A stretch of DNA of 42,324 nucleotides, taken from contig JAISUL010000024.1 in assembly GCA_031272145.1 (NCBI GenBank), positions 1 through 42,324 on the forward strand, written 5' to 3'. Position 1 is the first letter of the stretch, and every line of letters begins with the position of its first letter. Of the stretch, positions 3,484 to 24,350 are shown one piece after another. Position numbers and translations under genes: made by a program. A model generated the notes under the pieces. It made no database searches. It saw nothing but the letters and a program-made list of their open reading frames with translations, and had not been told where the DNA came from. The DNA comes from Synergistaceae bacterium (lineage in GTDB: Bacteria > Synergistota > Synergistia > Synergistales > Aminobacteriaceae).

Positions 3484-4097
3484 TTTATAAGCTTGACCGG
3501 CAAAGGGCCGTGGTAACGGGAGTCGTAGGCGTTCGCTCTGGGGTCGACTAACCCCTCGGGGTCGACTGACTCCACCTCGGCCATCAGCCACACGCAGCCG
3601 TCGGGCACTACTATGGGGTACCGCACCTTTACCCAGCTTTCGTCGATTATCGGCGCCCTGTACGGCACTCCGTCGATCGTGATGTTGCCGCCGTCTCTGT
3701 CTATGACGGAGCCTGGCAGAGCCGCGACCCTCTTGAGCAGAGTCGGAACGATGAACGTCATGCGGTCCTCGCGTACCTCCGGCCTCTCGGCGTAAAACTC
3801 CTGCACGTCGAACGCCACCACGTCCCCGACGGCTAAGGGGTTAGTCAACCCCGAGGGGTTAGCCAACCCCAAGGGGTTAGTCCCCCCCAAGGGGTTAGTC
3901 AACCCCGAGCCGCGTTCCCCCGTGCTGACGCTGCGCCACAGCCCGACTGGGACGTGCGACGGCGAGAGGTTGATGTGAAGCCCGAACAGGGGGAAAGCCC
4001 CAAGGAACCCCCCTACGCACAGGAAGATGAGCGTCAGGCTGCGGAGCGCGCGCCTATTTATTCGGGCTTGCATTGGGGAACTTGTCCCTCGGGGCAT
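3453..4097 (-). CDS. traF: TraF-like S26 signal peptidase of conjugative transfer
   Basis: Up to 214 residues, S26 serine peptidase family. One N-terminal membrane anchor is followed by the Ser box SPSHVPVGLW and the Lys box LLKRVAALPGS. The C-terminal substrate-box region ends NAYDSRYHGPLP. In RP4-type systems TraF matures the TrbC pilin. The start is either 4097 (GGGG upstream) or 4073; both are plausible. Two foreign-looking in-frame insertions are present. One is four tandem 18-nt units at 3836-3907, translating as GLTNPL-like repeats between the Ser box and the VGDVVAF strand. The other is a shorter related pair near 3540-3570. Neither interrupts a catalytic motif. Confidence 0.85.
   Translation of the reverse strand: MPRGTSSPMQARINRRALRSLTLIFLCVGGFLGAFPLFGLHINLSPSHVPVGLWRSVSTGERGSGLTNPLGGTNPLGLANPSGLTNPLAVGDVVAFDVQEFYAERPEVREDRMTFIVPTLLKRVAALPGSVIDRDGGNITIDGVPYRAPIIDESWVKVRYPIVVPDGCVWLMAEVESVDPEGLVDPRANAYDSRYHGPLPVKLIKWKAEPLLVR
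3540..3570 (-). repeat. Diverged mini-repeat pair in the traF 3-prime region
   Basis: Two units of the form GGGGTCGACTAACCCC, related to the 18-nt repeat but with TCGAC in place of TTAGTC. They add roughly VDPEGLVDP just before the conserved YDSRY motif of traF. Confidence 0.6.
3836..3907 (-). repeat. Four tandem 18-nt palindromic mini-repeats inside traF
   Basis: Four units of 18 nt, each around GGGGTTAGTCAACCCC, whose arms GGGGTT and AACCCC can pair. They encode six residues per unit (GLTNPL, GGTNPL, GLANPS, GLTNPL) and keep the frame. Related units lie at 3540-3570, 5733-5786 and 39376-39409. Confidence 0.85.
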
Positions 4098-4326
4098 TGC
4101 CGCCCCTTTGCGCGCCAGCGTCGGACGAGCCCGCCGTTGTGTCTGCGCTGGAGACGGCGTGGATCGCGTCGAAGTTCAGGGTCATGGAGTCCGTCCACTT
4201 GTGCAGACCCTCTGCTATGGCACCGTTGCGCGCGTCCGAGTACCCCATGAACCAGCCCATCGCAAACGCGGCACCAGCGACAGCAAACAGCAGGAGTAAA
4301 AACCTCATGATCCTCACGGCGCTCAC
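4054..4326 (-). CDS. Small membrane protein between trbI and traF
   Basis: Up to 90 residues. One hydrophobic segment (residues about 7-30) contains small residues and ends in GWFMGYSDARNG. A polar Ala, Ser and Asp-rich tail follows. The GTG at 4326 overlaps the trbI stop (GTGA), implying translational coupling; the ATG at 4308 is an alternative. The end overlaps the start of traF. No family was recognised. From position it could be a small accessory or entry-exclusion-like component, but that is only inference. Confidence 0.55.
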   Translation of the reverse strand: MSAVRIMRFLLLLFAVAGAAFAMGWFMGYSDARNGAIAEGLHKWTDSMTLNFDAIHAVSSADTTAGSSDAGAQRGGNAPRDKFPNASPNK

Positions 4327-5708
4327 CGTTTTTTGTAAGGCGTGTAGGGGCCGGCGAAGGCTACGTCCTTCGTCGTGATGATGCTGAAGCGATAGCCCGG
4401 CAGGATGCGCAGGGTCGGGGCCACGTTCATGTTGCGCTCGGCCAGCCTAGCCCCAAGCTGCGTGACCTGCTGCATGGTGGCGTCGGACATCGCGTCGCCG
4501 GCGGTTAGGTTGTAGTCGTTGCGGTTCGTGTCGTTCTGCGTGGCGATCTTGCCCGCCGCTGCGAAAACCGAGGCGAACAAAGCCGCTCCCAGCATGCGTC
4601 CGTAGTGGTTGTCGACCTTTTGCTTGAAGCCCGCGTAGCCGCCCTGGTCGCTCCCCGACATCCCCTCCAGATTGAGCGACGTCCCGTCTGGGTAGATTAT
4701 CCTCTGCCATACGACGAGTATCCTCCACTGGCCGTAGACGACGTGAGAGTCGTATGATCCGATCATCCGCGAGCCCTGGGGTATCAGCAGGCTTGAGCCG
4801 GTGGCGGTGTCGTATACGTTCTCGGTCACCTGCCCCACGATCGTGCCTGGCAGGTCGCTGTTTATGCCGCCGATCATCACGCCGCTTATGATAGAGCCGG
4901 CCTTGAGCTCGTAATTCCCGCGCGGAGCCCGCCGCGATGAGCCGATGTACTCGTCCTTCGCGTCATTTGCACCCACGTTAGTTAACCCGGTGCTGTTCTT
5001 GATAAACGCGTTGTTCCTGTCCTGATGGGACATGGCCGAGGCGTTGGGGTCGGACTCGCCGTAGCCGTACTGCGGCCTCATGTTTATACCGGTAACGCCG
5101 GCGCCGCCGCCCAGCGTGTACGTGCCAGGCCAAGCCGCTACGTCGCCGTCCGAGCGTTCAGCGCCCTCCGCCGCGCCGCTTAGGGCACTTGATGCGCTTG
5201 AAGAAAGCTGCCCGCCAGACTGCGGAGGGTTGTCTAACCCCAGCTTGACGTTGGGGTCGGAGGCCAGAGCACTCATTCTGAGCTGCCTGCTGCGCGTGTA
5301 CGCCTCAGATGAAGCACGACGCACGCGCGGCTGGGCTTGGTGGCTCGTGGTATCAGTGCTCTCAGTCGGCTGCTGTTCGGGCTGCTGTTCCGGCGCGTTC
5401 AGCTTTTCCGTGGTCGGGGCCGCGGTTGGCTCGCCTGCGCTGAGCGCCGCTAAAAACCTGTCGAACCTGTCGCTGTAAGCGCCGCTAGCCGAGGCCACGA
5501 CGGAGACCGGAATAGAGGTGCTGCCGGTGCTCATCATCTCGGTCTCGCGGCTCAAGTTGAATATGACGAAGGCTATCGCAGCCCCGCCTAGCGCCGTGAG
5601 TATCCAGAAGAGCCTGTTGCTTATAGGCGTGTTTCTGAACCTCGAAGCCGCGACTTGTACGTCTTTCCTGCCGCTTTCGCTTTCGGACTGAGGTGTTGAC
5701 GCCCCCAT
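4323..5708 (-). CDS. trbI: TrbI/VirB10-type T4SS channel protein
   Basis: 461 residues, the usual length of RP4 TrbI. A cytoplasmic N-terminal segment precedes a single inner-membrane helix (residues about 32-52). A Pro, Gln and Thr-rich periplasmic linker follows, including EQQPEQQPTES. The C-terminal TrbI domain contains GSIISGVMIGGINSDLPGTI, LIPQGSRMIGSYDS, WQRIIYPDG and GYAGFKQKVDNHYGR. The protein spans inner and outer membranes and forms the core channel with TrbG. A GAGGAGGG ribosome site precedes the ATG at 5708, 13 nt after trbG. The N-terminal words FRNTPIS also occur at the C-terminus of TrbG, from a duplicated stretch of about 20 nt. A degenerate mini-repeat (GLTN) occurs around 4975-4995. 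Confidence 0.9.
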   Translation of the reverse strand: MGASTPQSESESGRKDVQVAASRFRNTPISNRLFWILTALGGAAIAFVIFNLSRETEMMSTGSTSIPVSVVASASGAYSDRFDRFLAALSAGEPTAAPTTEKLNAPEQQPEQQPTESTDTTSHQAQPRVRRASSEAYTRSRQLRMSALASDPNVKLGLDNPPQSGGQLSSSASSALSGAAEGAERSDGDVAAWPGTYTLGGGAGVTGINMRPQYGYGESDPNASAMSHQDRNNAFIKNSTGLTNVGANDAKDEYIGSSRRAPRGNYELKAGSIISGVMIGGINSDLPGTIVGQVTENVYDTATGSSLLIPQGSRMIGSYDSHVVYGQWRILVVWQRIIYPDGTSLNLEGMSGSDQGGYAGFKQKVDNHYGRMLGAALFASVFAAAGKIATQNDTNRNDYNLTAGDAMSDATMQQVTQLGARLAERNMNVAPTLRILPGYRFSIITTKDVAFAGPYTPYKKR

Positions 5709-5721: not shown

Positions 5722-6897
5722 TCAGTTCGCCTCGGGGTTAGTCAACCCCGAGGGGTTAGTCAACCCCGAGGAGTCAGTCGACCCCGCGCTTATCGGCGTG
5801 TTTCTGAATATCCCTACACGGTCTTTCCCGACCGTCAGGATGCCTACGTCGAAGAGCCTGTCGACGATGTAGAGGTTGTGCTCGACGCGGTAGTTGACCA
5901 GCTTCTCGCGCCCGCCCTGCTTGACAAACATAGCGGGGGCCTCGGTAATGTTCATGGTCTTCGGCATGACTATGTACGTCTTCCCCCCGGCGTCGTAGAC
6001 GGCCGTGGGCTTCCATGGGACGTTCTTGCCGCGGGTTACCTTCACGGTGTAGTCGAGGTTTATCGAGGCTGCGTCGGTGATCCTCGCGTCGTCCGCGATA
6101 TTCGCGCCGCTTGCTGCCTGAAGCCTCGCGGCCTTTGCCTCGTTGATCATCGCGTACTGACCGTTAAGCAGCCTCCATGACTCCTCGTCGGCGTTCTTCG
6201 CCTCATCAGGGTAGACGAAGCCGACAAACGGCATGTAGCTGCCGGTGTCCGACACTATCTCAAGCGAGTAGGTGCGCCGGTCGGTGTGGATTATCATGTT
6301 CGCCGCTATGTCGGGGAGCTGCGGCTTCAGGATGACGTGGGTCACGAGGTTGCCGGGGTTGCCGCTCCACGCGCCCGACACCGACCAGCGCGCCGAGTCG
6401 GAGATGTGCACGCTCTTGACCTGCTCGCCCGGCTCCAGCTCTATGTCCGTCAGGCGCAGCGGGCGGCACACGATCCTAGGCGTCATAGCTCCGTAGTAAA
6501 AGTTGACGCGCCCGTTGCCGCCGAGGTACGGCTCAGGAACTGAGCCGGCCTTCTCGTAGGCCTCGACCAGCTTCATAGCCGACTTGTCCACCGGTCTCAT
6601 CTGGGGTACTTTGTCGACCTCTGCCAGCTTCCTGTCGAACACGTCTGAGTCATCCGGCTCCTCGCGCGGCGGAAGGACTACAGGCCCAGTAGACTCGACG
6701 CCGTCCTCGCGCAGATTGTAAGCACTGACGAGCGCGTCGAAGGACGCGTTAAGCAGGCCGTATTCGTCGGTGTTCGCGGATGCATCGGGGTTCACGGGGA
6801 ACATACTCGCCGCCTGCGCCGATGAGACCGACAAGAGCAGCATTAAGAGCATCATTGGCACGGCAGCAAAGCCGACCACAAAAACACGAGTTTTCAT
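5722..6897 (-). CDS. trbG: TrbG/VirB9-type T4SS outer-membrane complex protein
   Basis: 391 residues with a clear signal peptide at 1-29 (hydrophobic run, then SSAQAA). The beta-rich VirB9 domain contains FYYGAMTPRIVCRPLRLTDIE, GEQVKSVHISDSARWSVSGAWSG and, in the C-terminal lobe, KPTAVYDAGGKTYIVMP. It forms the outer-membrane core with TrbI. GGAGGTG about 9 nt upstream decides the ATG at 6897; the longer frame runs antisense to conserved trbF sequence. The C-terminus carries three in-frame copies of the 18-nt mini-repeat (GLTNPSGLTNPEAN end) and an FRNTPIS block shared with the start of trbI, so the native C-terminus seems extended by about 25 residues. Confidence 0.88.
   Translation of the reverse strand: MKTRVFVVGFAAVPMMLLMLLLSVSSAQAASMFPVNPDASANTDEYGLLNASFDALVSAYNLREDGVESTGPVVLPPREEPDDSDVFDRKLAEVDKVPQMRPVDKSAMKLVEAYEKAGSVPEPYLGGNGRVNFYYGAMTPRIVCRPLRLTDIELEPGEQVKSVHISDSARWSVSGAWSGNPGNLVTHVILKPQLPDIAANMIIHTDRRTYSLEIVSDTGSYMPFVGFVYPDEAKNADEESWRLLNGQYAMINEAKAARLQAASGANIADDARITDAASINLDYTVKVTRGKNVPWKPTAVYDAGGKTYIVMPKTMNITEAPAMFVKQGGREKLVNYRVEHNLYIVDRLFDVGILTVGKDRVGIFRNTPISAGSTDSSGLTNPSGLTNPEAN
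5733..5786 (-). repeat. Three tandem 18-nt mini-repeats at the trbG 3-prime end
   Basis: Three 18-nt units (two with GGGGTTAGTCAACCCC and one diverged, GGAGTCAGTCGACCCC) encode the last residues of TrbG, just before the stop at 5722. Confidence 0.85.
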
Positions 6898-6914: not shown

Positions 6915-7643
6915 TCAATTGTAAGTTCTGACGGCCTCTATACTGTAGTCGGTGATGTACACGCCCATAGGGTTGTTGAGCATGTCGAAGTAGTCCGACG
7001 GCGGCGAGACCGTCACGGTGAAGAGGCCCTCGTAGCGACTTTGCGGTGTGAGGGTGCCGTCGCTCATCGTGCTTACCTCCGACCAGTTCGCCTGATAGGT
7101 GTGGGCAGTCACAGGCACTATGGCGTCGAATTCTATGGTCACCGGCGCGGCGGCGGACGTCGGCGGGGCGCTCCTGAAGTACGCGTCCAGCTTGGACGAC
7201 GCGAAGCTGTTCGCCTTGACCGACCGGTACGCGTCCTGCGCAAAGATAAGCTGGGCGTTCCTGTCCATCACCCTGATCCTGCTGTTGAAGATGAACGTCT
7301 CCACCTGCGCCATGATAACCCTCTGGTCTACGCCCGAAACGCTGTCGAGAGGCTTGATGGGGATCGCAAATCCTTTCTCGTCCACTTGAATGACGTAGGG
7401 CTGTATCTTCGGGGTGCTGGCCAGCCAGATGTTCCCGCCGATGCTGAACGCCAGAAGCACCATGAGGGCAAACGAGGCCGCGCGCCAGTTCGCGATAGTG
7501 TCGGGCAGCGGCGTCAAGCTCTGCCTCGACTGGAGCCATGGGTTGTTCTCGAACGCGGCGCGGGCTAGCTTGTCCGACTCAGCCGCCGATGGCATTTCAG
7601 CCGCGACCGCCGCGTTATTTCTTTTTTGGATCGAAAAAAGCAT
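6915..7643 (-). CDS. trbF: TrbF/VirB8-type T4SS inner-membrane protein, second copy
   Basis: 242 residues of the VirB8/TrbF family, which scaffolds the channel at the inner membrane. A cytoplasmic N-terminus with NNPWLQSRQSLTPL precedes one membrane helix (about 55-75). The periplasmic NTF2-like domain includes IQPYVIQVDEKG, FIFNSRIRVMDRNAQ, SKLDAYF and NPMGVYITDYSIEAVRTYN. It starts 5 nt after the preceding VirB8-like gene, with GAGG upstream. Its C-terminal motif NPMG(V/I)YI(T/I)DY is shared with that neighbour, showing the two are paralogues. This copy has the longer N-terminus typical of TrbF. Confidence 0.85.
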   Translation of the reverse strand: MLFSIQKRNNAAVAAEMPSAAESDKLARAAFENNPWLQSRQSLTPLPDTIANWRAASFALMVLLAFSIGGNIWLASTPKIQPYVIQVDEKGFAIPIKPLDSVSGVDQRVIMAQVETFIFNSRIRVMDRNAQLIFAQDAYRSVKANSFASSKLDAYFRSAPPTSAAAPVTIEFDAIVPVTAHTYQANWSEVSTMSDGTLTPQSRYEGLFTVTVSPPSDYFDMLNNPMGVYITDYSIEAVRTYN

Positions 7644-7648
7644 TTTCC

Positions 7649-8290
7649 TCAGCCGTCCTTCCGAGTTGTCCTCAGCGCCTCGATGACGTAGTCAATGATG
7701 TAAATTCCCATCGGGTTGTCAAGAATATATTCGTCGTCGGCGTAGCCCATGTCCAGCCCAACCGCGCCCGCCTTGTCCGCCAGCCTGAAGAACCCCTCGT
7801 AGCGATTCAGCGAGAGCGCTCCCTTCGCGTCGACGACTAACTCGTGCCACCTGGCCGTGTAGGCGTTGGCGCTCAGAGGCACGACCGTCTCTATCTCGAC
7901 AAGCGTCGGGCCAGGCACGTTAATCGGCGGGTTCTCCAGGAAGTACGCGTCCAGCTTGTCCTGCGCCGGGCTGTTGGGGGCGACGAAGAGGTAGGAGTTC
8001 GGCGTGAACTTTATCTGGGCGCTGACGTCCATGAACCGCGTTCGGCTATTGTATATGAAAAGGCCTATGTGCGACATGACCAGCCTTGGGTCAACGCGGC
8101 TCAAGTCCATCGACTTGTACAGCACGTCGCGGGCGTGCTGCTTCACGTGCAGCAGGTATGGCTCCACCTTCACGGGTTCGAGCGCGAGCCTCACGTTGCC
8201 CCACATGCTGAAGACGAGCAGAGCCGCGAGGAAGATCGCCACCGCGCGCCAGTCCAGCAGCGCGTCTGACAAGCGCCGAGCGTTAGACAC
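7649..8290 (-). CDS. TrbF/VirB8-like paralogue, first copy
   Basis: 213 residues beginning with GTG at 8290, preceded by AGGAGG within the end of trbL. The cytoplasmic segment is short. One membrane helix (residues about 15-35) is followed by a VirB8-type domain with VEPYLLHVKQHA, LFIYNSRTRFMDVSAQ, DKLDAYFLENPP and NPMGIYIIDYVIEALRT. It is about 30% similar by eye to the next gene, so tandem duplication and divergence is likely. Two different VirB8-like subunits could form a mixed ring or serve different states of the channel. Alternatively one copy may be a specialised regulator. Confidence 0.8.
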   Translation of the reverse strand: MSNARRLSDALLDWRAVAIFLAALLVFSMWGNVRLALEPVKVEPYLLHVKQHARDVLYKSMDLSRVDPRLVMSHIGLFIYNSRTRFMDVSAQIKFTPNSYLFVAPNSPAQDKLDAYFLENPPINVPGPTLVEIETVVPLSANAYTARWHELVVDAKGALSLNRYEGFFRLADKAGAVGLDMGYADDEYILDNPMGIYIIDYVIEALRTTRKDG

Positions 8291-8291
8291 G

Positions 8292-10340
8292 TCACTCGCC
8301 TCCTATGCTCTCTCTGCCGCCGTCAATGCCCTCGGCGGCGCCGTTTATGCCCTCTAAGGAACCGTTGATGCCCTCCGAGGAGCCGTTTATGCCCCCCGCA
8401 GCGCTGCCCCTGCTCTTGCCGGAGCTGGCTGGACTCGGCATGTCTATGGCGTCGTCGGCTGCGCTGGACGTGGACGTCTCGTGCGTCTCCGGCGCCCTGA
8501 AAGCGCCGGGCATCCCGATGGCCTCAGGCATCTTGACTCCCTCGTCGGTGATCATACGTGACATCACGACGCTGCGAAGATCGCCGGACGCGGACTGCGT
8601 CTCGTAAGTCTGCGTCGGCTGCTCGGAGGTGCCCATGGCCTTTCGCATGACATCTCTGATGTCGTCGCCTAAGATCGGGGCGCTTTCCTCGCGGTTATTC
8701 GGCGCTTCGGCCAATTCGCCGTTCGACGCTCTAGACGCGGCTGATCCGACGGTCTCCGTCTCGGATATTTGCTCCTCTCGAGCGCGCTGTTCGCGCTGTT
8801 CGCGGCTGGCTAAACTGCCAGTCCCGGCGCTCACACTCTGCCCGATCCGCGCGTTGTCAACGCCCTGAACTCCGCCGGCCGCACTGACCGCATTGGCCGC
8901 ACTGGTCGAACTGGCTGCACCTACTGACGCAGCACTGACAGGGGAAGCTGCCGCGTCTTTAAGCGCTTCGGCAGCGCTGACCGCACCGACTGACGCCGCC
9001 GCGCCCGAGGAAGCCGCCGCATCTCTGACTGCACCTGCAGCGCTGGCTGTGCCGACTGACGCCGCCGCGCCCGAGGAAGCCGCCGCATCTCTGACTGCAC
9101 CTGCCGCGCTGGCTGTGCCGACTGGCGCCGCCGCGCCTGAGGAGGCTACTGCGTCTTTAATCGCCTCGGATGTGCTTGATATGCTGCTTGATGCGCTTGA
9201 TGCACTCGCGTATGGGACATTCATATCCGTGGGGTAGGAGAACGATGTGTCGTAGTCCGATGCGTTGTAGCCGTAGTTCATGAACGGGGAGGAGCGACTG
9301 CCTCCCTCGGATGCCGCGGCGGTCAGCTGGCTTTCCGATACATGGCCACCATCGTTCCCTCCGTCTCTCCAGCGTTCCCCTGCCCCCCATGCCGCGGTGT
9401 CGCCGGACGCGGCGCCGCCATACCCGGCTAGCTCCAGCCACGATGCCCTCTCGAACACGGCGCCGGACACCAACGCTCCGGCCATAGCGGGCAGCTTGTG
9501 CACTGCCACAAACGCCAGAGCGGACAGGGCCGCCAGGTTGAACGAGTGCAGGAAGAACCCTTGGCTGCCGACGTTCTGGACGTTGCTTATCGTGGTGTTC
9601 AGAGCAGTCAGCATGCTGATCACGATCGGCAGCACTATCTGCAGAATGGTCAGCTTGAACCCGACGGATATGATCACCCTGACGTAGTTCTTGGCGAAGG
9701 AGTACGACCAGAGGGTGCCGCCCATGCCTATGAGCACAACGCCTATCGGAACCACGAGGTAGAACTCTATGACGTAGACGGCGGCGTAGGCCGCGGCGTA
9801 GGCAAGGGACGCCAGAGCCAAGGCGTATGGCACGGCCGCCCATACCGCGTTGTGGACGCCCAGGGTGAAGGCGTCGCTCGTGAGGCTGTAGATCACCTGG
9901 ACGCCGGCTATCAGCGCCGATGCCGGGCTTATCTGCGCGCCGCCGCCGAGTACGCGCAGGCCTTGCGTGACGATCGTGCCGCCGAGGTCGGGCCAAGCGG
10001 TCAGTATCCACCAGAAGAACCCGATAAACATGACCTCGCGGATGACGGTACGAGCCACAGAGAACAGGCTGAACTCGCCGCTCATCGCGAGCTGTATGGC
10101 GCTCCACGCGAATTGTATGACAGCCAGCACCCAAAACAGGCGTTTCGCCGCGTCGATGAAGTTCTGCTTTAGGTCGTCCACCTTGGTCTGTATATCCCCT
10201 ATGAACTTGTCCATGCTCTGCCCGCCCTGAGCCGAGTCGTAGCCAGTCGCGTCCGCAGCGTGCGCAACTAGAAACGGCGAGGCCATGCATAGCACAAAGG
10301 CCGTCAGTACGATGACGCCGATGGATTTTGCTCTGTCCAT
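8292..10340 (-). CDS. trbL: TrbL/VirB6-type polytopic T4SS membrane protein with repeat tail
   Basis: 682 residues. A signal-like hydrophobic N-terminus ends in AHAADA. Several membrane helices up to about residue 300 include TLWSYSFAKNYVRVIISVGF and the KLPAMAGALVSGAVFE segment, typical of VirB6/TrbL, which forms the inner-membrane part of the substrate path. The C-terminal half is low-complexity. It has Ala, Ser and Gly-rich 22-residue repeats (coding 66-nt units around 8930-9170), a charged region, and a final set of INGS(S/L)EG repeats. RP4 TrbL is about 530 residues, so the tail is an expansion. The start overlaps the last trbJ-like gene by 37 nt. Confidence 0.85.
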   Translation of the reverse strand: MDRAKSIGVIVLTAFVLCMASPFLVAHAADATGYDSAQGGQSMDKFIGDIQTKVDDLKQNFIDAAKRLFWVLAVIQFAWSAIQLAMSGEFSLFSVARTVIREVMFIGFFWWILTAWPDLGGTIVTQGLRVLGGGAQISPASALIAGVQVIYSLTSDAFTLGVHNAVWAAVPYALALASLAYAAAYAAVYVIEFYLVVPIGVVLIGMGGTLWSYSFAKNYVRVIISVGFKLTILQIVLPIVISMLTALNTTISNVQNVGSQGFFLHSFNLAALSALAFVAVHKLPAMAGALVSGAVFERASWLELAGYGGAASGDTAAWGAGERWRDGGNDGGHVSESQLTAAASEGGSRSSPFMNYGYNASDYDTSFSYPTDMNVPYASASSASSSISSTSEAIKDAVASSGAAAPVGTASAAGAVRDAAASSGAAASVGTASAAGAVRDAAASSGAAASVGAVSAAEALKDAAASPVSAASVGAASSTSAANAVSAAGGVQGVDNARIGQSVSAGTGSLASREQREQRAREEQISETETVGSAASRASNGELAEAPNNREESAPILGDDIRDVMRKAMGTSEQPTQTYETQSASGDLRSVVMSRMITDEGVKMPEAIGMPGAFRAPETHETSTSSAADDAIDMPSPASSGKSRGSAAGGINGSSEGINGSLEGINGAAEGIDGGRESIGGE
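8930..9170 (-). repeat. 66-nt tandem repeats in the trbL tail
   Basis: About three to four imperfect 66-nt units (22 residues, with DAAASSGAAASVG and SAAGAVR cores); the GCGCCCGAGG word recurs at 9001 and 9067 and, as GCGCCTGAGG, at 9133. The region is likely to vary in copy number. Confidence 0.75.
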
Positions 10341-11095
10341 CTTACCACCCCCTGCTCAAACGCCGCCTGCAGGTCCGCCTCGTCCTGCACTTCGTATGCC
10401 GCCAGCTGCGCGCTTATCTCGAAGTTCCTCATAAAATCAGTCCGCGTCAGGAGGAGCTGCTGGTTAGTGAAGTTCGCCATCAGGTTGCCCATGTTGAACA
10501 GGGGCATGTAGCCGCTGGTTTGGCTCGACAGCAGGAGCTGCGGCGCCATCACCAGCAGCTGCCGGGTCGACGTGGCGGACGTCGCCGACGCCTCCAGAGA
10601 GTTCCCCTTGAACATCCCGTAGCCGTAGGATGTCGAGCCGCCCGCCCAGTTGTTAGCCCGCGTTTTGTAGATGGCCTTGAAGTCCAGCACCGGGCTCTGG
10701 TCGCCACTCAGGACGCGGTAGCCGGGGTTCTGGGCGTTGAACTTCTCCCGCGTGAGCGAGTCCGCGAAGGACAGAGCCAAATCCGGAGATGACTGCAGCG
10801 CCGAGTAGAGCGCCTTTATCTCGCCGGTCGCCATGTCAATCGGAATCCAGGTGAGCATCGCGTGGTCGCTCGCGTAGCGGGAGTCGTAGGCCTTGTCGCC
10901 CGACTCCTCCTCGACGTAGTCCAGGTATGCCGCGAGCTCCAGAGCGGATCGCGCCGACACGAGCCCGCCGTCCGCCTTGACTCTGTCGTCCTGCCCACCA
11001 GCCCATGCCGCATTAGCATTGGCAAAGCCGGCACAGAGCAGGGAGAAAAGCGCGGCCAAGGTCAGAAGCCAGCGCCGCCGTTTTGCGAGAGCCAT
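10304..11095 (-). CDS. trbJ: TrbJ/VirB5-like secreted T4SS protein, copy 5 of 5
   Basis: 263 residues with a Lys/Arg-rich start and a signal peptide ending ANANAAWAG. The mature part is helical. It has the family word YKTRANNW in the middle and the shared C-terminal pattern AFEQGVVRWTEQNPSASSY. VirB5/TrbJ proteins are periplasmic minor pilus components. The ATG at 11095 lies 34 nt inside the preceding paralogue, and the gene's own last codons contain the trbL start. The repeated C-terminal pattern, not overall identity, defines the set; these five are well diverged. Confidence 0.78.
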   Translation of the reverse strand: MALAKRRRWLLTLAALFSLLCAGFANANAAWAGGQDDRVKADGGLVSARSALELAAYLDYVEEESGDKAYDSRYASDHAMLTWIPIDMATGEIKALYSALQSSPDLALSFADSLTREKFNAQNPGYRVLSGDQSPVLDFKAIYKTRANNWAGGSTSYGYGMFKGNSLEASATSATSTRQLLVMAPQLLLSSQTSGYMPLFNMGNLMANFTNQQLLLTRTDFMRNFEISAQLAAYEVQDEADLQAAFEQGVVRWTEQNPSASSY

Positions 11096-11856
11096 GTCTT
11101 CACCGCCTGATCGAACGCGGACTGCCTGTCGATCTTGTCCTGCCGCTCCTCGAGCGCGAGGCGCGCGGTCGCGTCTACCAGCCTCTCGTTGTCGACTCGC
11201 AGCTTCTCCAGCCACTGGTTCGCCATGTCCAGTATCTGGTTGTTCGCCTGAAGGAGCGATCTGTAGCCGTCGGCGCTCGCCGTCGCGTTGCGAAGCTTGC
11301 TCACCATGCCGATGTCCTGCGGGTTGCCCGATATGGCCGCCGCAGCCAGCACGTTGGCGTTCAGGGCGGTCTGCGAGTAGGACTTTACCGCCGCGGCCCT
11401 GTCCTTGTATGACTGCGCGTAGTCGGTCACGCCCAAAGAAGCATCCCTGTACCCCGGGGCTGCCGCTTGAAACGCCGTGCTCGACAGGTTCCCGAACGTC
11501 AGGGTGCCCGACAGCATCACGTAGGTCGCAATGGTGTCCGCCGGGACGTACACGCTGAGCGAGAGGTCGCCGCTCAGCGCCTGATGGTCTCTGACGTACT
11601 CGTCCGTGATGGTCTTGTTCGTGCTTATGATGAACTCGTCATACGCCAGCCATATGGGGACGGTATTGATGTCCTGCTTCATTATGTCCTTCAGCTTGCT
11701 CAGTATGGTCTCTTTAAGCACGCCTATCGCAGCGAGGTTGGCCGACACCTCAGCCCAAATAGCCGCGTCGCTAGATGCCCGCGCACCATCGGGGCACGCG
11801 AGCATTGCTGCCAGCAGCGCCGTCAGTAGGAGGCAGCTGGTGATTGATCTACCCAT
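11062..11856 (-). CDS. TrbJ/VirB5-like secreted T4SS protein, copy 4 of 5
   Basis: 264 residues. The signal peptide (about 1-27) ends DGARASSD. Long amphipathic helices follow, with DHQALSGDLS, APGYRDASLG and YAQSYKDRAA. The C-terminal pattern is AFDQAVKTWLSQNGGAGF, in which Trp is conserved across copies. The DHxAL and GYR words occur at similar places in neighbouring copies, supporting common descent. The start at 11856 overlaps the upstream paralogue by 34 nt and its end overlaps the next by 34 nt. Probable periplasmic pilus-tip or adhesin-like subunit. Confidence 0.78.
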   Translation of the reverse strand: MGRSITSCLLLTALLAAMLACPDGARASSDAAIWAEVSANLAAIGVLKETILSKLKDIMKQDINTVPIWLAYDEFIISTNKTITDEYVRDHQALSGDLSLSVYVPADTIATYVMLSGTLTFGNLSSTAFQAAAPGYRDASLGVTDYAQSYKDRAAAVKSYSQTALNANVLAAAAISGNPQDIGMVSKLRNATASADGYRSLLQANNQILDMANQWLEKLRVDNERLVDATARLALEERQDKIDRQSAFDQAVKTWLSQNGGAGF

Positions 11857-12587
11857 TCCCTCACCGCCTGTTTGAACGCCGCGTGGACGTCCGTCCTCTC
11901 CTGCCAGTCGTTCAGCGCGAAACGAACCTCCGCGTCGAGGCGCCTCTGAACGTCAGTCCTGATGCGCGGTATCTGCTGGTCGGCGAAAAGCGCTATCTGC
12001 TGCCCAGCCTGAGCAACCGCGCGGTAGGACATTGATTCGCTCCCGCTCCACGCCTTGTGCATGTCTGCTATAGCGGCCTGAGTGTCCGAGGCCGTGTCGA
12101 CGGCCGTCTTGTTCAAGAGCGTCAGGGCGTTCGCGTAGAGCGTGAACTCCGTCACCCTGCTCTTGTAAGCTTGCTTGAAGTCGATATACGCCCCAGAGTC
12201 AGGCTCTCTGTAGCCAGGGTTGCTTAACAGCGCAACGCCGGCCGCGAGGGCAGCGGAGGACTTCAAAAGTTCGCTTCCGTAGTCCCGCGACACGACCGCT
12301 GTCAGCGCCTTGTGGTCGCTCGTGTAGTTGGGCTCGCGGAAAACCGTCTCGTACGCAAGGGCCGCTGCCGCGATCTCGGTCAGCTCCGTCGTCATGTTCT
12401 TAGACTGAGTCAGCATCTCGTTCTCCAAGGCCTGCTCCGTGCCGTAAAGGGCCAGCAAGGTGGTGGTTAGGGCGAGCATCTCCCTTGCGTCGCCTCCGCC
12501 AGCCGCCGGCCTGGCCAGCGCTGCCACGAGAGCCACAGCCACCGCGCACCGTCTCAATATGAAATACCTGGTGTTTGAGCGCTCCAT
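11823..12587 (-). CDS. TrbJ/VirB5-like secreted T4SS protein, copy 3 of 5
   Basis: 254 residues. After an Arg-containing start, a hydrophobic signal segment ends around LARPAAGGG. The body has NYTSDHKALTAVV, NPGYREPDSG and FKQAYKSRVTEF, which match the order of words in the other copies. It ends AFKQAVREWVDQSPAASY. The C-terminal Trp codon provides the start of the following paralogue in another frame. Its own start at 12587 sits in the same place inside the upstream paralogue. Confidence 0.78.
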   Translation of the reverse strand: MERSNTRYFILRRCAVAVALVAALARPAAGGGDAREMLALTTTLLALYGTEQALENEMLTQSKNMTTELTEIAAAALAYETVFREPNYTSDHKALTAVVSRDYGSELLKSSAALAAGVALLSNPGYREPDSGAYIDFKQAYKSRVTEFTLYANALTLLNKTAVDTASDTQAAIADMHKAWSGSESMSYRAVAQAGQQIALFADQQIPRIRTDVQRRLDAEVRFALNDWQERTDVHAAFKQAVREWVDQSPAASY

Positions 12588-13504
12588 CTCACTGCCCCGT
12601 CGAACGCCGCCTGAACGTCAGTCCTCTCCTGCTGCTCGTTCATGGCGTAGCGGGTCTCGGCGTCTACGTGCCTCTGAAGGTCGAGCCGGAGCATTGAGAG
12701 CTCCTGCACGGCCATCTCGCTTGCCTGAAACCCAGCCTCCATCGCCTTGTTGTAGACCGCCAGCACCTGCCCCAAGACGGGGATAGACATGCTGTCGTCG
12801 GCCTCCTTGATCTGCTTTATCCTTGCCTGATCCGCCAGAACGCCAGCCGCAGCCGTGTTGTTCGCCTTCAGCGCCGTCTTGACGTAGCCGTTGAAGCCCG
12901 ACGCCCGCGTCTTGTAGTTTGCCACGAAGTCGTAGGACGAATTCGGCACCCAGTACCCCTGCTGGAGGAACCACTTCTCTATCGCCATAGCGCTCGAAAA
13001 CGACAGAGCCCCACCTGACGAGAGGCCGTCGCACATCGCCTTGATGTCCGCCGAGACGTCCTTCCAGTAAATGTTGCCGAGCTGCGAGTGGTCGGCCTTC
13101 CAAACGGCCTCCTCCAGTGCGTAAAGGGACGCCTCCCTAGTTAGCGTGTCCTTCATCTCCTGGTTCATGGCCTTCCACTTGTCGAGCGATATGTTGAGAC
13201 TGGCGTTCACAGCCGTCATGCCAGGTATCTTCTTGTTCTTGATGGTGCTGGCAGTGTCGCTGTTGTCGCCGCCAGCGTAGGCCGTGCCCATCAACATAAG
13301 CAGAGAGCCCAGCACCAGCGCAGCCGCAAGCGACTTGAACACGGTCTTGAACGCGGCCTTGATAACATCGAGCATCGCCGCGTACACCCTGAACAGCGCC
13401 CTAATCACCTTGGTCGCCTTGTCCACAGAGGCGGCCTTGTCCACGGCCTTGTCTGAGCGCGTCTGCTTGTCTAATACGACTTCCCGCTTGTTTGTGTCTG
13501 CCAT
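12554..13504 (-). CDS. TrbJ/VirB5-like T4SS protein with cytoplasmic extension, copy 2 of 5
   Basis: 316 residues, longer than the other copies. A Lys-rich N-terminus of about 50 residues (NKREVVLDKQTRSDKAVDK) comes before the hydrophobic segment (FKSLAAALVLGSLLMLMGTAYAG). It may therefore be an anchored form or have an unusually long signal region. The rest follows the family order (ADHSQLGNIYW, NYKTRASGFN, and AFDGAVRWSAQTPGISY at the end). The ATG at 13504 overlaps the preceding paralogue by 34 nt; the longer upstream frame was rejected as antisense-like low-quality extension. Confidence 0.75.
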   Translation of the reverse strand: MADTNKREVVLDKQTRSDKAVDKAASVDKATKVIRALFRVYAAMLDVIKAAFKTVFKSLAAALVLGSLLMLMGTAYAGGDNSDTASTIKNKKIPGMTAVNASLNISLDKWKAMNQEMKDTLTREASLYALEEAVWKADHSQLGNIYWKDVSADIKAMCDGLSSGGALSFSSAMAIEKWFLQQGYWVPNSSYDFVANYKTRASGFNGYVKTALKANNTAAAGVLADQARIKQIKEADDSMSIPVLGQVLAVYNKAMEAGFQASEMAVQELSMLRLDLQRHVDAETRYAMNEQQERTDVQAAFDGAVRWSAQTPGISY

Positions 13505-14355
13505 GTTCCTCTCGCTTTCTCGAAGGCCAGAACCCTGTCGGTTCGCCTCTGCTGTCTTAGCGCCGCGTACCTCGCCCTGAGCTCGATGTGCCTTATGACG
13601 TCCAGGCGAAGCCGCGCCGCCTCCTGCGCTATGAACACGTAGACAAGCCTGCGCGCGAACATCGCCTGAGCGTATCCGAGCACAGCCCCAGTCCCGTATG
13701 AGAGCAAGTCGAGCTTCTTTATCAGCGCCGCCCGGCTGTCCCGCGCGTCCAATGCCTCCGTGTTGTTCCCCTTGATAGCCGCGTAGAGGTAGTCCTGCCA
13801 CTCGGCCATCATATTTTTGTAAGCCGCGGCAAAGTTGTCCCCCTTGCTGCCCGACGTGCCTGGGTACACGACGTCGAAGCTAGCGTCGAAGTCTCCCGAG
13901 CTGACGAACGAAAGCGCATCGGCCTTCCCCAGCAGAGAGTAGAGGCTGGTTATCTTGCCCGTCAGGTCCTCCCAGCTGTAGGCGCTGACCCTGCCGTGGT
14001 CGCGCACCTCGTTCTGCATTCGGGTCGTTAGCCTGCTGTCAGCAAGACTATATATGCCCTTGACCTTCGGCTCAAACGTCGCGGAGTCCTGAGTGGCCTG
14101 AATGCCCTTCAACTCGCCGCGCATCATCTCGTAGTTGCCGCTTTTGTTCACGATGGCCTTAGCCCCGGCGATGGGCGCAACCACCGCGGCGATGTCCCCA
14201 GCTGGCACGTGCCCTGTCGCCGCAGCGGTCGCGGTCGCGACAAGCCCGTCCAGCTCCTTGACCAGACTGTCAACGCTGCCCCCCGCAAACCCAGCAGCAG
14301 GAACAAAAACGGTGATAAGCAGCGCGCATACAAAAGCGGTCTGAAGGCGTTTCAT
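13471..14355 (-). CDS. TrbJ/VirB5-like secreted T4SS protein, copy 1 of 5
   Basis: 294 residues with a signal peptide ending PAAGFAGGS. It directly follows trbE with a 4-nt ATGA overlap, so it sits where trbJ normally lies. The body contains RDHGRVSAYSW, VYPGTSGSKGDNFAAAYKNMMAEW and the C-terminal AFEKARGTWQTQTSGKSY. The C-terminal Trp codon holds the start of copy 2. It is the most divergent of the five. Confidence 0.75.
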   Translation of the reverse strand: MKRLQTAFVCALLITVFVPAAGFAGGSVDSLVKELDGLVATATAAATGHVPAGDIAAVVAPIAGAKAIVNKSGNYEMMRGELKGIQATQDSATFEPKVKGIYSLADSRLTTRMQNEVRDHGRVSAYSWEDLTGKITSLYSLLGKADALSFVSSGDFDASFDVVYPGTSGSKGDNFAAAYKNMMAEWQDYLYAAIKGNNTEALDARDSRAALIKKLDLLSYGTGAVLGYAQAMFARRLVYVFIAQEAARLRLDVIRHIELRARYAALRQQRRTDRVLAFEKARGTWQTQTSGKSY

Positions 14356-16835
14356 GACGGCTTATGCTCCTTCGCTCTGTACCCGCTACTCCAGCCTTCC
14401 GCCGCGCCGGGCAGTCCGCGCTCGCCGAGCCAGTATTTCGGCCACTCTGCCCCGTGCTCGTCGCGCAGCACCTTTATCCTCGCGATGTCCTCCTTAGCCC
14501 CAGCCCCTACGAACGACAGAGCCACCGGGCCGAGGCCCAACTCAAACAGCTTCCGCCCCATCGGGTTGGCGAAGTAATAGTGCCTCTTGCGCGTCGCACC
14601 GGCTATGAGCGCCACCTGCCTGTCGTTCAGGCCGAATATCCGCTTGTACAGCTCGGCGGAGTGCTCCGTGCGCGCCTCTGGGTTCGGCAGGAATATCTTG
14701 GTCGGGCATGACTCGACCAGGGCGCTCGTTATGGCGCTCTCAGCTATGTCCGACACGTTTTGCGTCGCCATAACGACGGCGCAGTTGGCCTTGCGCAGGA
14801 CCTTCAGCCACTCCTTTATCTTGCCGGAGAAGACTGGGTTGCCAAGGGCCAGCCACGCCTCGTCTATGACCAGCATGGTGGGCCGTCCGGTCAGGCGCTT
14901 CTCTATCTGCCGGAACAAAAACAGCAGCACGGGGCCGACGATGTTCTTGCCGTACTGCATCAGCTCCTCCATCTCGAACGTCACGAGGCTCTTGTACTTT
15001 ATGTCGTTCTTCCGCCCGTCGACGAAGTTCCCCGCCGCGCCGCCGCCTATCTGGTAGTAGGACAGCAGCCGCCTCACCTTCTCGGACTGCACCGTGCTGA
15101 TGTAAGCCGTGATGGTTCTGTCCTCGCTTTTGGAGGTGGAGTCGGCCAAGATGTTCACCGCCTCGCGCACCAAAGAGCGGTCTTCGGCGCCGAGGTGGTC
15201 GCCTGGGTTGTCCTCGAGCTGGAGCTTCAGCAGGGCGTCCAGAAACTCGCATGCCCAGCCTCTGTCCTCCTGGGAGTCGAGGTCGGCCAAGGGGCAGAAG
15301 CCGCCCGCCTCGGCCAAGGCTCCGAGGTCATAGTGGGCCGCGTCCAGGCACGACGCGGTAAGGGCGAACATTGACATGCCCTTGTCGAAAACGAACACCT
15401 GGGAGTTCTTGTACCGCTCGAACTGCGAGACCAGCGTCGCCAAGAGAGTCGACTTGCCCGCGCCGGTCGGCCCCAAGATCAGAGTGTGCCCCACGTCGTC
15501 CACGTAGAGGTTCACGCGGAACGGCGTCGTGCCGATCGTCGCGGCCTGCATAAGCGCCGGGCTGTTCGGGGGGAAGTGCGGAGGAGGGGACGGGCAGAAC
15601 TCCGACCCAGACCACTCGTGCGAAAGGGGGGCCAGGTCAGCGAAGTTCAGGCTGTGAAGGTACGGCTTCCTGACGTTCTCCCGTCCGTGCCCAGGCAGAG
15701 AGCCCAGGAAGGCCTCCAGGGCGTTGCGTCTCTCCAGCCTGATGGGGAAGGCCAGGCGCTCGAAGATCTTCGTGATCTCCCTGACCCCGCGGTTGACCGT
15801 CTCCTCGTCGTCGCCCTTCAGCATGACTGTGGAGGTGTAGTGCCCGTAGATTATCGACCCCTGCTCTATGAGGGACTGGGCCGACTCCAGCTCCTTGACC
15901 ATCTGCAGCGCGTACTGGTCGGGCGGGGCAGGGGTGTTCATCATAGCGGCAGTGAAGGGGTAGACCTTCTGCTGCCATTTCCGCCTGTCGGAGTTGATCT
16001 TGTTCCGCGCGTACTGCTGATCCGTCACGATGAACCGCGACGACCACACCATGTCTATTGGCATCTTCTCCACGTCGGCCAAGATGCCAGGGTAGGAGTA
16101 GGACGGGAAGCCGTCGATGCTCAGTATCGCGACGATGCGTCCGTCGTAGACCAGGAAGTTCCCGTTTTCGAGGTCGCGGGCCAGCCACGAGTCGAGGTCG
16201 CTCGGCGGGTTCGGCAGTCGGCACGGGTGCTTCTTGGAGTTGAGTATCATATTGATGGCGCCGAGAAGCTCGTCGCAGTTCGTGGCGGGCTCGTACGTCA
16301 GACGACTGAACCGCACGGTCTGGGAGAAGCTGGTCTGGAAGCGCGCGATCATCTCGTTGAAGCGCTTTATGTCCCTCTCGATGTAGGACACGTCATCGTC
16401 GTCGCGCCCCATCATAAAGTCCCCCAGCTTCTTCATGAACCCGCCGCGCGCGTGCATGGGCGGCATGTATGTCAGGAACAAGTACGAAAACGACTCGTAG
16501 TGGGCGCCCTCTTTGGAGAACTGCGTCATGCGCTCGCCGTCTATCAGCGCGTTGGTCGGCTCGCTGAAGAACCCCTCAGGGTATCCAGACGACGGCACGC
16601 GCACCACGACCTGGTGCAGCATCCACCCCTCGTCCAGGGTCTTGACGGCGTTGTTGAACGACGCGGAGAGCCACTCTGCGTCCGCAACCGTGGCGCTCTC
16701 GAGGTCAGGCCCGCGGTAGAGGAAGCCCGCTAGGTACGAGCCGTTCTTGAGCAGCATGACGCCCGGCTCAAGCATGACCCTGTACTGCAGGTAGGCGTCC
16801 AAGCCGATCGGAGTCGGTCTGTCCTGCTGGCCCAT
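14352..16835 (-). CDS. trbE: TrbE/VirB4-type T4SS ATPase
   Basis: 827 residues, close to RP4 TrbE. The N-terminal VirB4 domain (about 1-400) includes FNNAVKTLDEGWMLH and GHYTSTVMLKG. The C-terminal AAA-like ATPase has Walker A GPTGAGKST near residue 458 and Walker B MLVIDEAWLAL near 655. VMATQNVSDIAES and an RKRHYYFANPMGRKLFEL tail follow, typical of the family. It powers pilus assembly and transfer at the inner membrane. The ATG at 16835 lies 2 nt after the trbD stop; the longer upstream frame runs antisense and was rejected. No TrbB/VirB11 partner ATPase is in the window. Confidence 0.92.
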   Translation of the reverse strand: MGQQDRPTPIGLDAYLQYRVMLEPGVMLLKNGSYLAGFLYRGPDLESATVADAEWLSASFNNAVKTLDEGWMLHQVVVRVPSSGYPEGFFSEPTNALIDGERMTQFSKEGAHYESFSYLFLTYMPPMHARGGFMKKLGDFMMGRDDDDVSYIERDIKRFNEMIARFQTSFSQTVRFSRLTYEPATNCDELLGAINMILNSKKHPCRLPNPPSDLDSWLARDLENGNFLVYDGRIVAILSIDGFPSYSYPGILADVEKMPIDMVWSSRFIVTDQQYARNKINSDRRKWQQKVYPFTAAMMNTPAPPDQYALQMVKELESAQSLIEQGSIIYGHYTSTVMLKGDDEETVNRGVREITKIFERLAFPIRLERRNALEAFLGSLPGHGRENVRKPYLHSLNFADLAPLSHEWSGSEFCPSPPPHFPPNSPALMQAATIGTTPFRVNLYVDDVGHTLILGPTGAGKSTLLATLVSQFERYKNSQVFVFDKGMSMFALTASCLDAAHYDLGALAEAGGFCPLADLDSQEDRGWACEFLDALLKLQLEDNPGDHLGAEDRSLVREAVNILADSTSKSEDRTITAYISTVQSEKVRRLLSYYQIGGGAAGNFVDGRKNDIKYKSLVTFEMEELMQYGKNIVGPVLLFLFRQIEKRLTGRPTMLVIDEAWLALGNPVFSGKIKEWLKVLRKANCAVVMATQNVSDIAESAITSALVESCPTKIFLPNPEARTEHSAELYKRIFGLNDRQVALIAGATRKRHYYFANPMGRKLFELGLGPVALSFVGAGAKEDIARIKVLRDEHGAEWPKYWLGERGLPGAAEGWSSGYRAKEHKPS

Positions 16836-16837
16836 GC

Positions 16838-17200
16838 TTAGAGCCACCTTTTGGTCACGCTCGGCGGCATCCCACTCCTGCCCCGCTCGATCAGGCTGTG
16901 GGCGGGATAGAAGAACTGGTTGATGAACGGCCTGTCCGAGTAGGAGCTGGAGCGCCGAAACACGTCCATCATAAGAGGGTCGGCCTTGCCCATCAGCCTG
17001 AGCCCGAAGCTTATCAGAAACCACGCCCCGGCCGCGAGAAACATGATGCCCCAGTTGCCCCGCGAAAAGCCGAGGTTGAACCCGACGTAGCCGCACATAA
17101 TGGCGCTGGTCGCAAACAAGCTGCGGTCGCAGCCCATAATGAGAAGCGGCTTCGTCATGCTCTGGTTTATGGTGAGCTGACGAAGCTTTTCGTCCGCCAT
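16838..17200 (-). CDS. trbD: TrbD/VirB3-type T4SS membrane protein
   Basis: 120 residues with two hydrophobic segments (about 18-40 and 48-70). Its N-terminus LTINQSMTKPLLIMGCDRSLF is typical of VirB3/TrbD, in which the P-L-G-x-R pattern is conserved. It is required for pilus formation and works with TrbE. The start at 17200 has only a weak ribosome site, so coupling to trbC is likely. The stop is followed within 2 nt by trbE. Confidence 0.85.
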   Translation of the reverse strand: MADEKLRQLTINQSMTKPLLIMGCDRSLFATSAIMCGYVGFNLGFSRGNWGIMFLAAGAWFLISFGLRLMGKADPLMMDVFRRSSSYSDRPFINQFFYPAHSLIERGRSGMPPSVTKRWL

Positions 17201-17235: not shown

Positions 17236-17562
17236 TCAGAGCGGCAGCAAAGCGGAGGTGGTGTAGAAAGCGCTCAGAAAGCCGGAGGCGCTGACGATTA
17301 TGCCCAGCACGAGCACGAGGTAGACGGTCGTGCGCATGAACCCCTGTATGTTGCCCCCGAAGAGCAGCATAGCCCCGGCTCCGACTATCGCAATAAGAGA
17401 GACGACCATGGCGACGGGGCCGGTTATGGAGTCCCTGAGAAGACTGAGCCCGCTGTCCCAAGGAAGCGTGTTGGTGCCCGCAGCAAACGCTGCGTCCGCA
17501 AACGCAGCCACCGCCGTCCCAGTTAGCAGAGCCGCGATAACCCAGAAAATTTTCCTTTGCAT
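17236..17562 (-). CDS. trbC: TrbC/VirB2-type conjugative pilin
   Basis: 108 residues. A signal peptide (about 1-28) ends ADAAFAAG, followed by a short polar segment and two hydrophobic helices (GPVAMVVSLIAIVGAGAMLLF and TVYLVLVLGIIVSASGF). This is the standard pilin layout. In RP4-type systems the pilin is further processed and cyclised by TraF, which is encoded downstream here. GAGGGGG lies about 8 nt before the ATG at 17562. A separate promoter at 17625-17653 precedes it, which may allow T4SS expression apart from rpoBC. Confidence 0.85.
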   Translation of the reverse strand: MQRKIFWVIAALLTGTAVAAFADAAFAAGTNTLPWDSGLSLLRDSITGPVAMVVSLIAIVGAGAMLLFGGNIQGFMRTTVYLVLVLGIIVSASGFLSAFYTTSALLPL

Positions 17563-17624
17563 CACAAAATCCCCCTCAGCAAATTATATGTCCCCAAAAA
17601 ACGCGGCGGAACGCGAGCATAGGA

Positions 17625-17653
17625 AATATAGCGCTCTGGCACGGATACGTCAA
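17625..17653 (-). promoter_or_regulatory. Internal sigma70-like promoter before trbC
   Basis: On the minus strand TTGACG (17648-17653), a 17-bp spacer and TATATT (17625-17630). It overlaps the end of the upstream gene and reads into trbC. A weak CGCG stem followed by six T lies just downstream and could add attenuation, but it is too short to call a terminator. Confidence 0.5.
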
Positions 17654-18438
17654 TACCCTGTCTGCCTCGGCGCCACTTCTCCCATCCAGTAGTACCCCCA
17701 CACCATCGCCTGACGCGACAGCACCGGAGTGTCCGACTCGTACCACGTGAAGCCGGAGCGCTTCGACATCCTCGTGAGCTCGTAGATGTGGTTCCGGATG
17801 ATGTCGGTCGGGTGCTCGCCGTCGCTTCGGGCCGTCATGTGGTACCACGCGTGCCCAGTCCAGGCGTAGATCACGCGCGGGTAGTTCCCGCGCCACGCCA
17901 CGGGGAGGGAGGGCTTGTTCAGCACCCCCACCCTGTCCACGCTGCTCTTCCAGCCCCCAAGCTGCATGAAGCGCATGTCGAAGAGCCAGTCCGGCATGTA
18001 GGTCGAGCTCGGCGTCCCCGGCAGGGGGACAGCCGTCCCCAATCTAGCTCCGACGGAGGGCTGGGTCGCTAGCTCCGAGCGCCCGGCGTCGGGGAGGGTC
18101 GTCACCGACGAGATCTGCACGGAGCCAGGGAACGGGTTCAGCCCAGCAAGGGACGGGACGACCGACCCGACGACGTAGTGCGTGGGCGTGATTATGGGGC
18201 CGTTGAACGTGCCGTAGACCCACACCCCGTCCTTGTTCTTGGTCACGGGGTAGCCGTCGAACGTGGCGTACCACCCGGCCGGGGCGTTGTAGGGCTTGTA
18301 GAGGCTGAACTTCATGCCGGCGTAGGGAGGCTGCTCCACCAAAAGCGGCTCGACCGCGTAGAACTTACCCCATGCGGAGGCCGCAAAGCAGCACACCGCG
18401 ACCGCCGCCACCGCTACCGTGAGTGCCCTGCTTTTCAT
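17650..18438 (-). CDS. Secreted protein of unknown function, T4SS locus
   Basis: 262 residues. A signal peptide (about 1-25, ending FAASAWG) precedes a mature part rich in Pro, Trp and Tyr. Segments include YNAPAGWYATFDGYPVT, NPFPGSVQISSV and SGFTWYESDTPVLSRQAMVW. The ATG at 18438 is chosen because AGGAGG, overlapping the stop of the upstream gene, sits at ideal spacing. The aromatic, Cys-poor mature chain suggests a folded periplasmic or surface domain, but I recognise no family. In a standard trb locus trbB would occupy this position. Together with the TPR protein it may be a lineage-specific T4SS component. Confidence 0.65.
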   Translation of the reverse strand: MKSRALTVAVAAVAVCCFAASAWGKFYAVEPLLVEQPPYAGMKFSLYKPYNAPAGWYATFDGYPVTKNKDGVWVYGTFNGPIITPTHYVVGSVVPSLAGLNPFPGSVQISSVTTLPDAGRSELATQPSVGARLGTAVPLPGTPSSTYMPDWLFDMRFMQLGGWKSSVDRVGVLNKPSLPVAWRGNYPRVIYAWTGHAWYHMTARSDGEHPTDIIRNHIYELTRMSKRSGFTWYESDTPVLSRQAMVWGYYWMGEVAPRQTGY

Positions 18439-18448
18439 GTTCGGCCTC

Positions 18449-24331: not shown

Positions 24332-24350
<19 letters not shown>

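Follow-up and report, generated by a model that had tools for sequence, protein, structure and literature searches.

Five positionally fixed and overlapping trbJ genes in a chromosomal Trb-type type IV secretion operon of Synergistota

The Trb systems of Ti and IncP plasmids are type IV secretion systems (T4SS) with the gene order trbC-D-E-J-L-F-G-I, in which trbJ is present once. The same order, together with relatives of traF and traB, was found on the minus strand of a 42,324-nt stretch of DNA from a Synergistaceae bacterium, presumably a gut inhabitant (contig JAISUL010000024.1 of the 2.05 Mb draft genome G000, which is 97.8% complete), here called the window. The operon reads trbC-trbD-trbE, five trbJ genes (J1 to J5), trbL-trbF-trbF-trbG-trbI and then the relatives of traF and traB. 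Because it is located downstream of rpoBC, it is a chromosomal Trb-type (Ti/IncP-like) operon. It differs from the plasmid systems in its five trbJ genes instead of one, its chromosomal position beside rpoBC and the lack of a visible separate trbK, and the tested relaxase and coupling protein families were not found in G000. The present analysis concerns the five trbJ genes, which encode the VirB5 component, and their junctions, at which each gene starts inside the preceding one.

In the R388 Trw system, VirB5 (TrwJ) and VirB6 (TrwI) each form pentamers that together build the stalk, the TrwJ pentamer resting on that of TrwI, and VirB5 ends at the tip of the pilus (PMC9259494). The window is similar in that trbJ directly precedes trbL and the proteins match TrbJ models; a structural model of J3 aligns as a helical bundle with TrwJ over most of its length (Z 9.3), a score that unrelated bundles also reach. 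However, the R388 ring consists of copies of one protein, TrwJ, whereas the window harbors five diverged, positionally fixed genes. The nearest precedent is the Trw system of Bartonella with its tandem trwJ genes, for which a role as an attachment pilus was proposed (PMC2883598). Like the window operon, it is a conjugation-derived T4SS with tandem VirB5 paralogues for which no coupling protein was found. In Bartonella the copy number varies, J is co-amplified with I and H, the pilin genes are amplified and orthology is blurred by recombination. In contrast, in the clade of arrays to which the window belongs only J is amplified, the number is always five, orthology follows position, the junctions overlap, and trbL and trbC are single.

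The overlaps of most coupled gene pairs measure 4 or 1 nt; longer ones of the same phase (7, 10, 13 ... 34) form a rarer class in the survey of PMC10666635, which cites an overlap of 34 nt for the coat and lysis genes of phage fr. Like coupled overlapping genes, the window has serial overlaps between genes whose products are probably parts of one complex; it differs in repeating the long overlap from gene to gene, each time with a conserved Trp codon that contains the start. Both the protein family and the type of coupling are known, and what is new is their combination with a fixed number and order. A literature search that largely lacked subscription journals yielded no description of tandem TrbJ arrays in Synergistota and none of a VirB5 hetero-pentamer.

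The genes and junctions of the array in the window are as follows.

trbE, 14352..17096, minus strand: VirB4 ATPase (NF010404, E 9e-218); the real start is downstream of the start of the listed open reading frame (ORF)
trbE/J1 overlap, 14352..14355, minus strand: classical 4-nt ATGA
trbJ1, 13471..14355, minus strand: VirB5-like, 294 aa, predicted signal peptide; TrbJ_Ti E 7.8e-5, J1 clade support 100/97
J1/J2 overlap, 13471..13504, minus strand: 34 nt, ATG in Trp codon
trbJ2, 12554..13504, minus strand: 316 aa if counted from the ATG in the Trp codon, a less certain start; J2 clade with L035, L006 and L055, 97/91
J2/J3 overlap, 12554..12587, minus strand: 34 nt, ATG in Trp codon
trbJ3, 11823..12587, minus strand: 254 aa; groups with L035 J3, 84/78; AlphaFold2 (AF2) pLDDT 79
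J3/J4 overlap, 11823..11856, minus strand: 34 nt, ATG in Trp codon, Shine-Dalgarno (SD)-like site GGCGGTGA upstream
trbJ4, 11062..11856, minus strand: 264 aa; groups with L035 J4, 88/90
J4/J5 overlap, 11062..11095, minus strand: 34 nt, ATG in Trp codon, SD-like site GGCGGTGA upstream
trbJ5, 10304..11095, minus strand: 263 aa; groups with L035 J5, 95/85
J5/trbL overlap, 10304..10340, minus strand: 37 nt, ATG in Trp codon
trbL, 8292..10340, minus strand: VirB6-like, 682 aa (TIGR02783 E 5e-35; PF04610)

The sequence-only reading of this DNA had claimed four overlaps of 34 nt and one of 37 nt, each with the next ATG lying across the codon of a conserved C-terminal Trp. The coordinates give exactly 34, 34, 34, 34 and 37 nt from J1/J2 to J5/trbL, the last being longer because the tail of J5 has one extra residue. 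At all five junctions the codon before the tail TGG ends in A (ACA, AGA, GAA, ACA and AGA), and the ATG is formed by this A and the TG of TGG. This five of five compares with an A before 11 of the 71 internal TGG codons of the window (p=9e-5). Other details of that reading held for part of the junctions. The proposed ribosome site GCGGTGA(G/A)G is clean at J3/J4 and J4/J5 (both CAGGCGGTGA), while the other three differ: J5/trbL reads GGGGGTGG, and the sites at J1/J2 (GCGAGAGGAAC) and J2/J3 (GGGGCAGTGAG) are weaker. The tail ends in S-Y in four paralogues and in GF in J4. In J3, J4, J5 and trbL no start other than the ATG in the Trp codon yields a normal predicted signal peptide; the start is less sure for J2, where the hydrophobic segment begins about 57 residues in, an unusually long n-region.

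Based on NCBIfam sequence models and gene position, the five genes can be assigned to TrbJ. In the extended family TIGR02780 matches 14 of 39 members (best E 1.8e-13) and PRK13874 matches four. Window J1 (E 7.8e-5) and J4 (E 0.0033) match TIGR02780 below its curated cut-off and are therefore regarded as remote members; a Pfam scan of the window members gave no TrbJ match. In all arrays the trbJ genes are placed between trbE and trbL, the order also seen in relatives with a single trbJ. J2 to J5 of the window are 22-29% identical to J1. A simple hydropathy count revealed a hydrophobic stretch after the proposed start in nearly all TrbJ members, which is consistent with a signal peptide. The AF2 model of J3 had TrwJ/VirB5 (7o3v, Z 9.3 over residues 45-250) among its best PDB matches and also matched CagL (7.8), unrelated helical bundles scoring alike, and no Foldseek hit of this model had an E-value <0.001. 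The model of J1 is helical, with CagL (Z 7.8) among its best PDB matches beside many unrelated proteins. A search of PDB sequences with a TrbJ family profile gave no match.

The same array was collected from related genomes whose records are labelled Synergistaceae or Synergistales; judging from their isolate codes, these presumably come from termite hosts. Exactly five trbJ genes were present in all nine arrays of the clade (the window, L006, L055/L094, L035, L036/L087, L037, L038, L053 and L086), which derive from seven genomes (G000, G003, G009 with two arrays, G030, G152, G158 and G161 with two near-identical arrays) spanning six genera and two families. The interval from trbE to trbL is whole on one contig in six arrays; L053 and L038 begin inside J1, and L037 has trbE and five J genes with a degenerate trbL. 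At L037:1-800, only the first ~20 codons of trbL are left, with the start at the ATG in the Trp codon retained, and other short ORFs follow. A sequencing or binning artefact was ruled out, as independent metagenome-assembled genomes show the same array.

In a tree of 39 rows the genes are sorted by position rather than by genome. J1 of all seven arrays with a J1 in the tree falls into a single clade (100/97). J2 to J5 are likewise grouped by position, for the most part separately in either half of the array clade, and support is mixed for J3 and J4. The position label requires 8 changes on this tree, versus at least 15 in 500 shuffles within arrays (mean 21), and identity between positions is only 20-30%. 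The grouping indicates that the five genes predate the split of these genomes and that none was lost, gained or reshuffled since. Number and order of trbJ are thus conserved in the clade, a point that goes beyond the sequence-only reading. A recent tandem duplication as the source of the identical junctions was ruled out by the positional grouping across six genera and the low identity to J1.

Forty junctions from eight distinct arrays were compared. An A precedes the tail Trp codon at 25 of the 37 junctions where this Trp is present, versus 38 of 217 other Trp codons in the surrounding genes (17.5%; p=2.5e-11 with junctions treated as independent), which rules out a chance overlap; for J/J junctions outside the window the count is 14 of 25 (p=1.6e-5). 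The mRNA upstream of the ATG pairs with the 16S rRNA tail, for which the standard sequence was assumed, with a mean of -9.0 kcal/mol versus -3.6 kcal/mol at random positions (p=1e-11). The best SD-like sites are provided by the codons CAG GCG GTG A of a conserved Gln-Ala-Val. Furthermore, 37 of 40 trbJ genes stop with TGA, compared with 28 of 50 other genes in the same stretches (p=1e-4), and trbE and J1 overlap by 4 nt (ATGA or GTGA) in 6/6 readable arrays. DNA-level selection on an initiation site within the tail of the preceding gene is therefore well supported. Of the earlier interpretation, selection on the junction is supported by the A excess, the SD pairing, the TGA bias and the 4-nt trbE/J1 overlap; its premise that the junction is kept does not extend to every relative.

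The ATG in the Trp codon is used at about 23 of the 40 distinct junctions, where the overlap measures 25, 31, 34 or 37 nt. All five junctions of the window use it, four each in L037 and L038, three in L036 (one more being ambiguous) and in L086 (plus one GTG), two in L035, and one each in L006, L055 and L053 (the last plus one GTG). The most conserved junction is J5/trbL (7 of 8 arrays). At the remaining junctions the next gene starts at an overlap of 4 or 1 nt or after a gap of 0-13 nt (L036 J2/J3 possibly 29). The same paralogues separated by ordinary gaps, the case that would speak against a meaningful overlap, were looked for in relatives and are present in part: the ATG stands at an overlap of 1 nt or after a gap at four of five junctions in L006/L055 and at three each in L035 and L053, and these genes are positional orthologues of those in the window. 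An obligatory overlap was thus ruled out by junctions with 1-nt or 4-nt overlaps or small gaps. The overlap is widespread in the clade and replaceable by other close arrangements, and it was probably ancestral there. In L035, an AT-rich low-complexity insertion (L035:10197-10310) follows the retained ATG in the Trp codon between J4 and J5; the frame is closed and the start of J5 is uncertain.

In L006 four junctions retain the tail Trp, even with C, C, T and T as the preceding base and the next start elsewhere. Trp and tail length are therefore attributed to protein constraints and the A to a constraint on the DNA. The constant 34 nt needs no selection of its own, as the Trp sits at a fixed 10 codons before the stop in a conserved tail.

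Other trb operons of Synergistota were found with trbE as bait, and their trbE-trbL intervals were read out; their TrbE is 43-48% identical to that of the window. One trbJ was found in G007, G151, G166, G010, G036 and others, two in G079 and G101, three in G103, G024, G082 and G175, and four in G102, G080, G089, G014 and G087. No trb operon with more than five trbJ was seen among the Synergistota intervals examined. Operons with two to four trbJ (L093, L126, L133, L135, L130, L125, L129, L131, L139 and L127) form a separate TrbJ radiation, which is ordered by position and whose members have another tail in common (KLGF and similar) and meet at ordinary or short junctions. By these sequence relationships, VirB5 expansion happened at least twice. 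That a trbJ array might hold any number of paralogues was rejected for the five-trbJ clade, where no other number was seen; since arrays of two to four belong to a separate clade, the statement 'always five' is limited to the former.

The fixed, diverged VirB5 genes directly precede the VirB6 gene, which suggests that the five TrbJ proteins are distinct parts of one stalk or tip. We tentatively favor, with slightly more doubt than trust, a course in which a single trbJ gave rise to five specialised paralogues of fixed position, which work together as a set and co-assemble on TrbL, their translation being coupled. A ribosome on the preceding gene would expose the SD-like site in the Gln-Ala-Val codons and the ATG in the conserved Trp codon for the next J, whose start would be reached mainly in this way, and J1 to J5 and TrbL might thereby be made in balanced amounts. 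Reinitiation after termination acts locally, over short distances (PMC10666635), and the start lies 33 nt before the end of the stop; fresh initiation at the exposed site is therefore more likely at the 34-nt overlap than classical termination-reinitiation. On a base of TrbL, the five proteins would then co-assemble into the stalk or the tip of the pilus. Subunits of heteromeric complexes are over-represented among the products of overlapping gene pairs (PMC10666635).

The most likely form of such an assembly would be a hetero-pentamer with one copy of each J where R388 has a homo-pentameric VirB5 ring. A pilus with each J present once would need balanced synthesis, which the chained overlaps could supply. 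That the ring is an obligate hetero-pentamer of five position-specific subunits from chained, coupled genes, with operons of one to four paralogues as parallel or partial stages, is conceivable but considerably doubtful. For assembly as a pentamer on VirB6, the number five is circumstantial. We infer coupling in the cell, co-assembly and ring composition alike. Several points weigh against this picture. Equal output of six products would match five of each J to a fivefold TrbL ring, so that stacked homo-pentamers fit equally well. Unrelated bundles reach values like those of the helical-bundle matches (Z 8-9), several orthologous junctions lack the overlap in relatives, and the sequences behind the junction statistics are deeply diverged but not unrelated. 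Moreover, the second radiation has two to four members; five is thus not where every expansion ends.

The array could instead be a repertoire of variant surface adhesins, displayed together or by turns on the pilus tip as in Bartonella Trw, on a machine that is possibly an attachment pilus; the number would then be without structural meaning. Bartonella Trw, which has amplified trwL and trwJ and lacks TrwB, uses TrwJ1 and TrwJ2 to bind erythrocytes (PMC2883598; PMC3406051), and both the high divergence of the window paralogues and the lack of tested coupling protein and relaxase families in G000 and G003 agree with such a role. Nevertheless, deeply diverged arrays all hold five copies with orthology by position, while in Bartonella copy numbers differ between species and recombination blurs orthology (PMC2883598), and J alone is amplified here, not J-I-H together. 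We consider an adhesin repertoire somewhat unlikely. Concerning the machine itself, neither coupling protein (PF02534, PF10412) nor relaxase (PF03432, PF03389) was detected in the drafts G000 and G003 (97.8 and 98% complete); the relaxase search covered these two main families only, and absence from draft genomes is weak evidence. For this reason the machine of G000 and G003 may be a pilus for attachment rather than a channel for conjugation. PF03432 relaxases were found in G009, G152 and G161, and a coupling protein also in G009 and G152; as at least G009 and G161 additionally contain single-trbJ operons, the relaxases and coupling protein there could belong to those.

The number, order and junctions would suit equally a pile of five layers, in which each TrbJ forms a homo-pentamer and the rings are stacked on the TrbL pentamer into an elongated stalk or tip, in a 5:5:5:5:5:5 ratio set by equal translation; equal output of J and TrbL would even fit this better than a hetero-pentamer. 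However, stacking would not explain why the layers end at five in all arrays, and we know of no stacked VirB5 assembly, which makes it quite improbable. It is also improbable that the overlap is a by-product of a junction copied by tandem duplication and a fixed tail length, retained by compaction or drift without any gain from coupling. The tail Trp and its distance to the stop are indeed kept without a start there in L006, so the 34 nt can come from protein constraint, and the overlap was lost at some orthologous junctions. Against a by-product stand the roughly fourfold excess of A before the tail Trp in anciently diverged genes, which persists when the window is left out, the strong SD-like pairing and the TGA bias of the trbJ stops, which is not required by the overlapping frame.

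To our knowledge, a single homo-pentamer has so far shown how VirB5 subunits are arranged. What a T4SS attaches to is decided by its tip or stalk, which may also open the recipient membrane. A natural range of operons in one phylum, from one to five VirB5 paralogues, would reveal how distinct subunits can take the place of a homo-oligomeric ring, and it puts this question within reach of direct tests. The overlapping starts would clearly exemplify a gene structure adapted to the assembly of one small complex.

The remaining genes of the operon are as follows.

trbC, 17236..17565, minus strand: pilin; trbD lies between trbC and trbE
trbF copy 1, 7649..8290, minus strand: VirB8
trbF copy 2, 6915..7643, minus strand: VirB8
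trbG, 5722..6897, minus strand: VirB9, with homologues at the same place in relatives
trbI, 4323..5708, minus strand: VirB10
traF-like gene, 3453..4097, minus strand: pilin peptidase
traB-like gene, 2248-3591, minus strand: after the traF-like gene

The gene at 5722..6897 is probably trbG, judging from gene order and sequence. The doubling of trbF (6915-8290, minus strand) is confined to the window, as relatives have a single copy. A trbB-like ORF was seen by eye before trbC in L035 and L087, and none in the window. Between rpoC and trbC, two minus-strand ORFs were found (17650-18462 and 18449-19276), one without family match and one with TPR repeats. A ParA-like partition ATPase beside traB (841-1752, plus strand) is a possible trace of an integrated plasmid or integrative and conjugative element. 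Finally, RpoB (24332-33619, minus strand) has a length of 3095 aa, with about 1900 residues between the Rpb2 external-1 match, which ends near residue 570, and domain 6, which begins at 2541; this interval gives weak matches to the C-terminal domain of the RNA polymerase alpha subunit and to other helix-hairpin-helix-like families.

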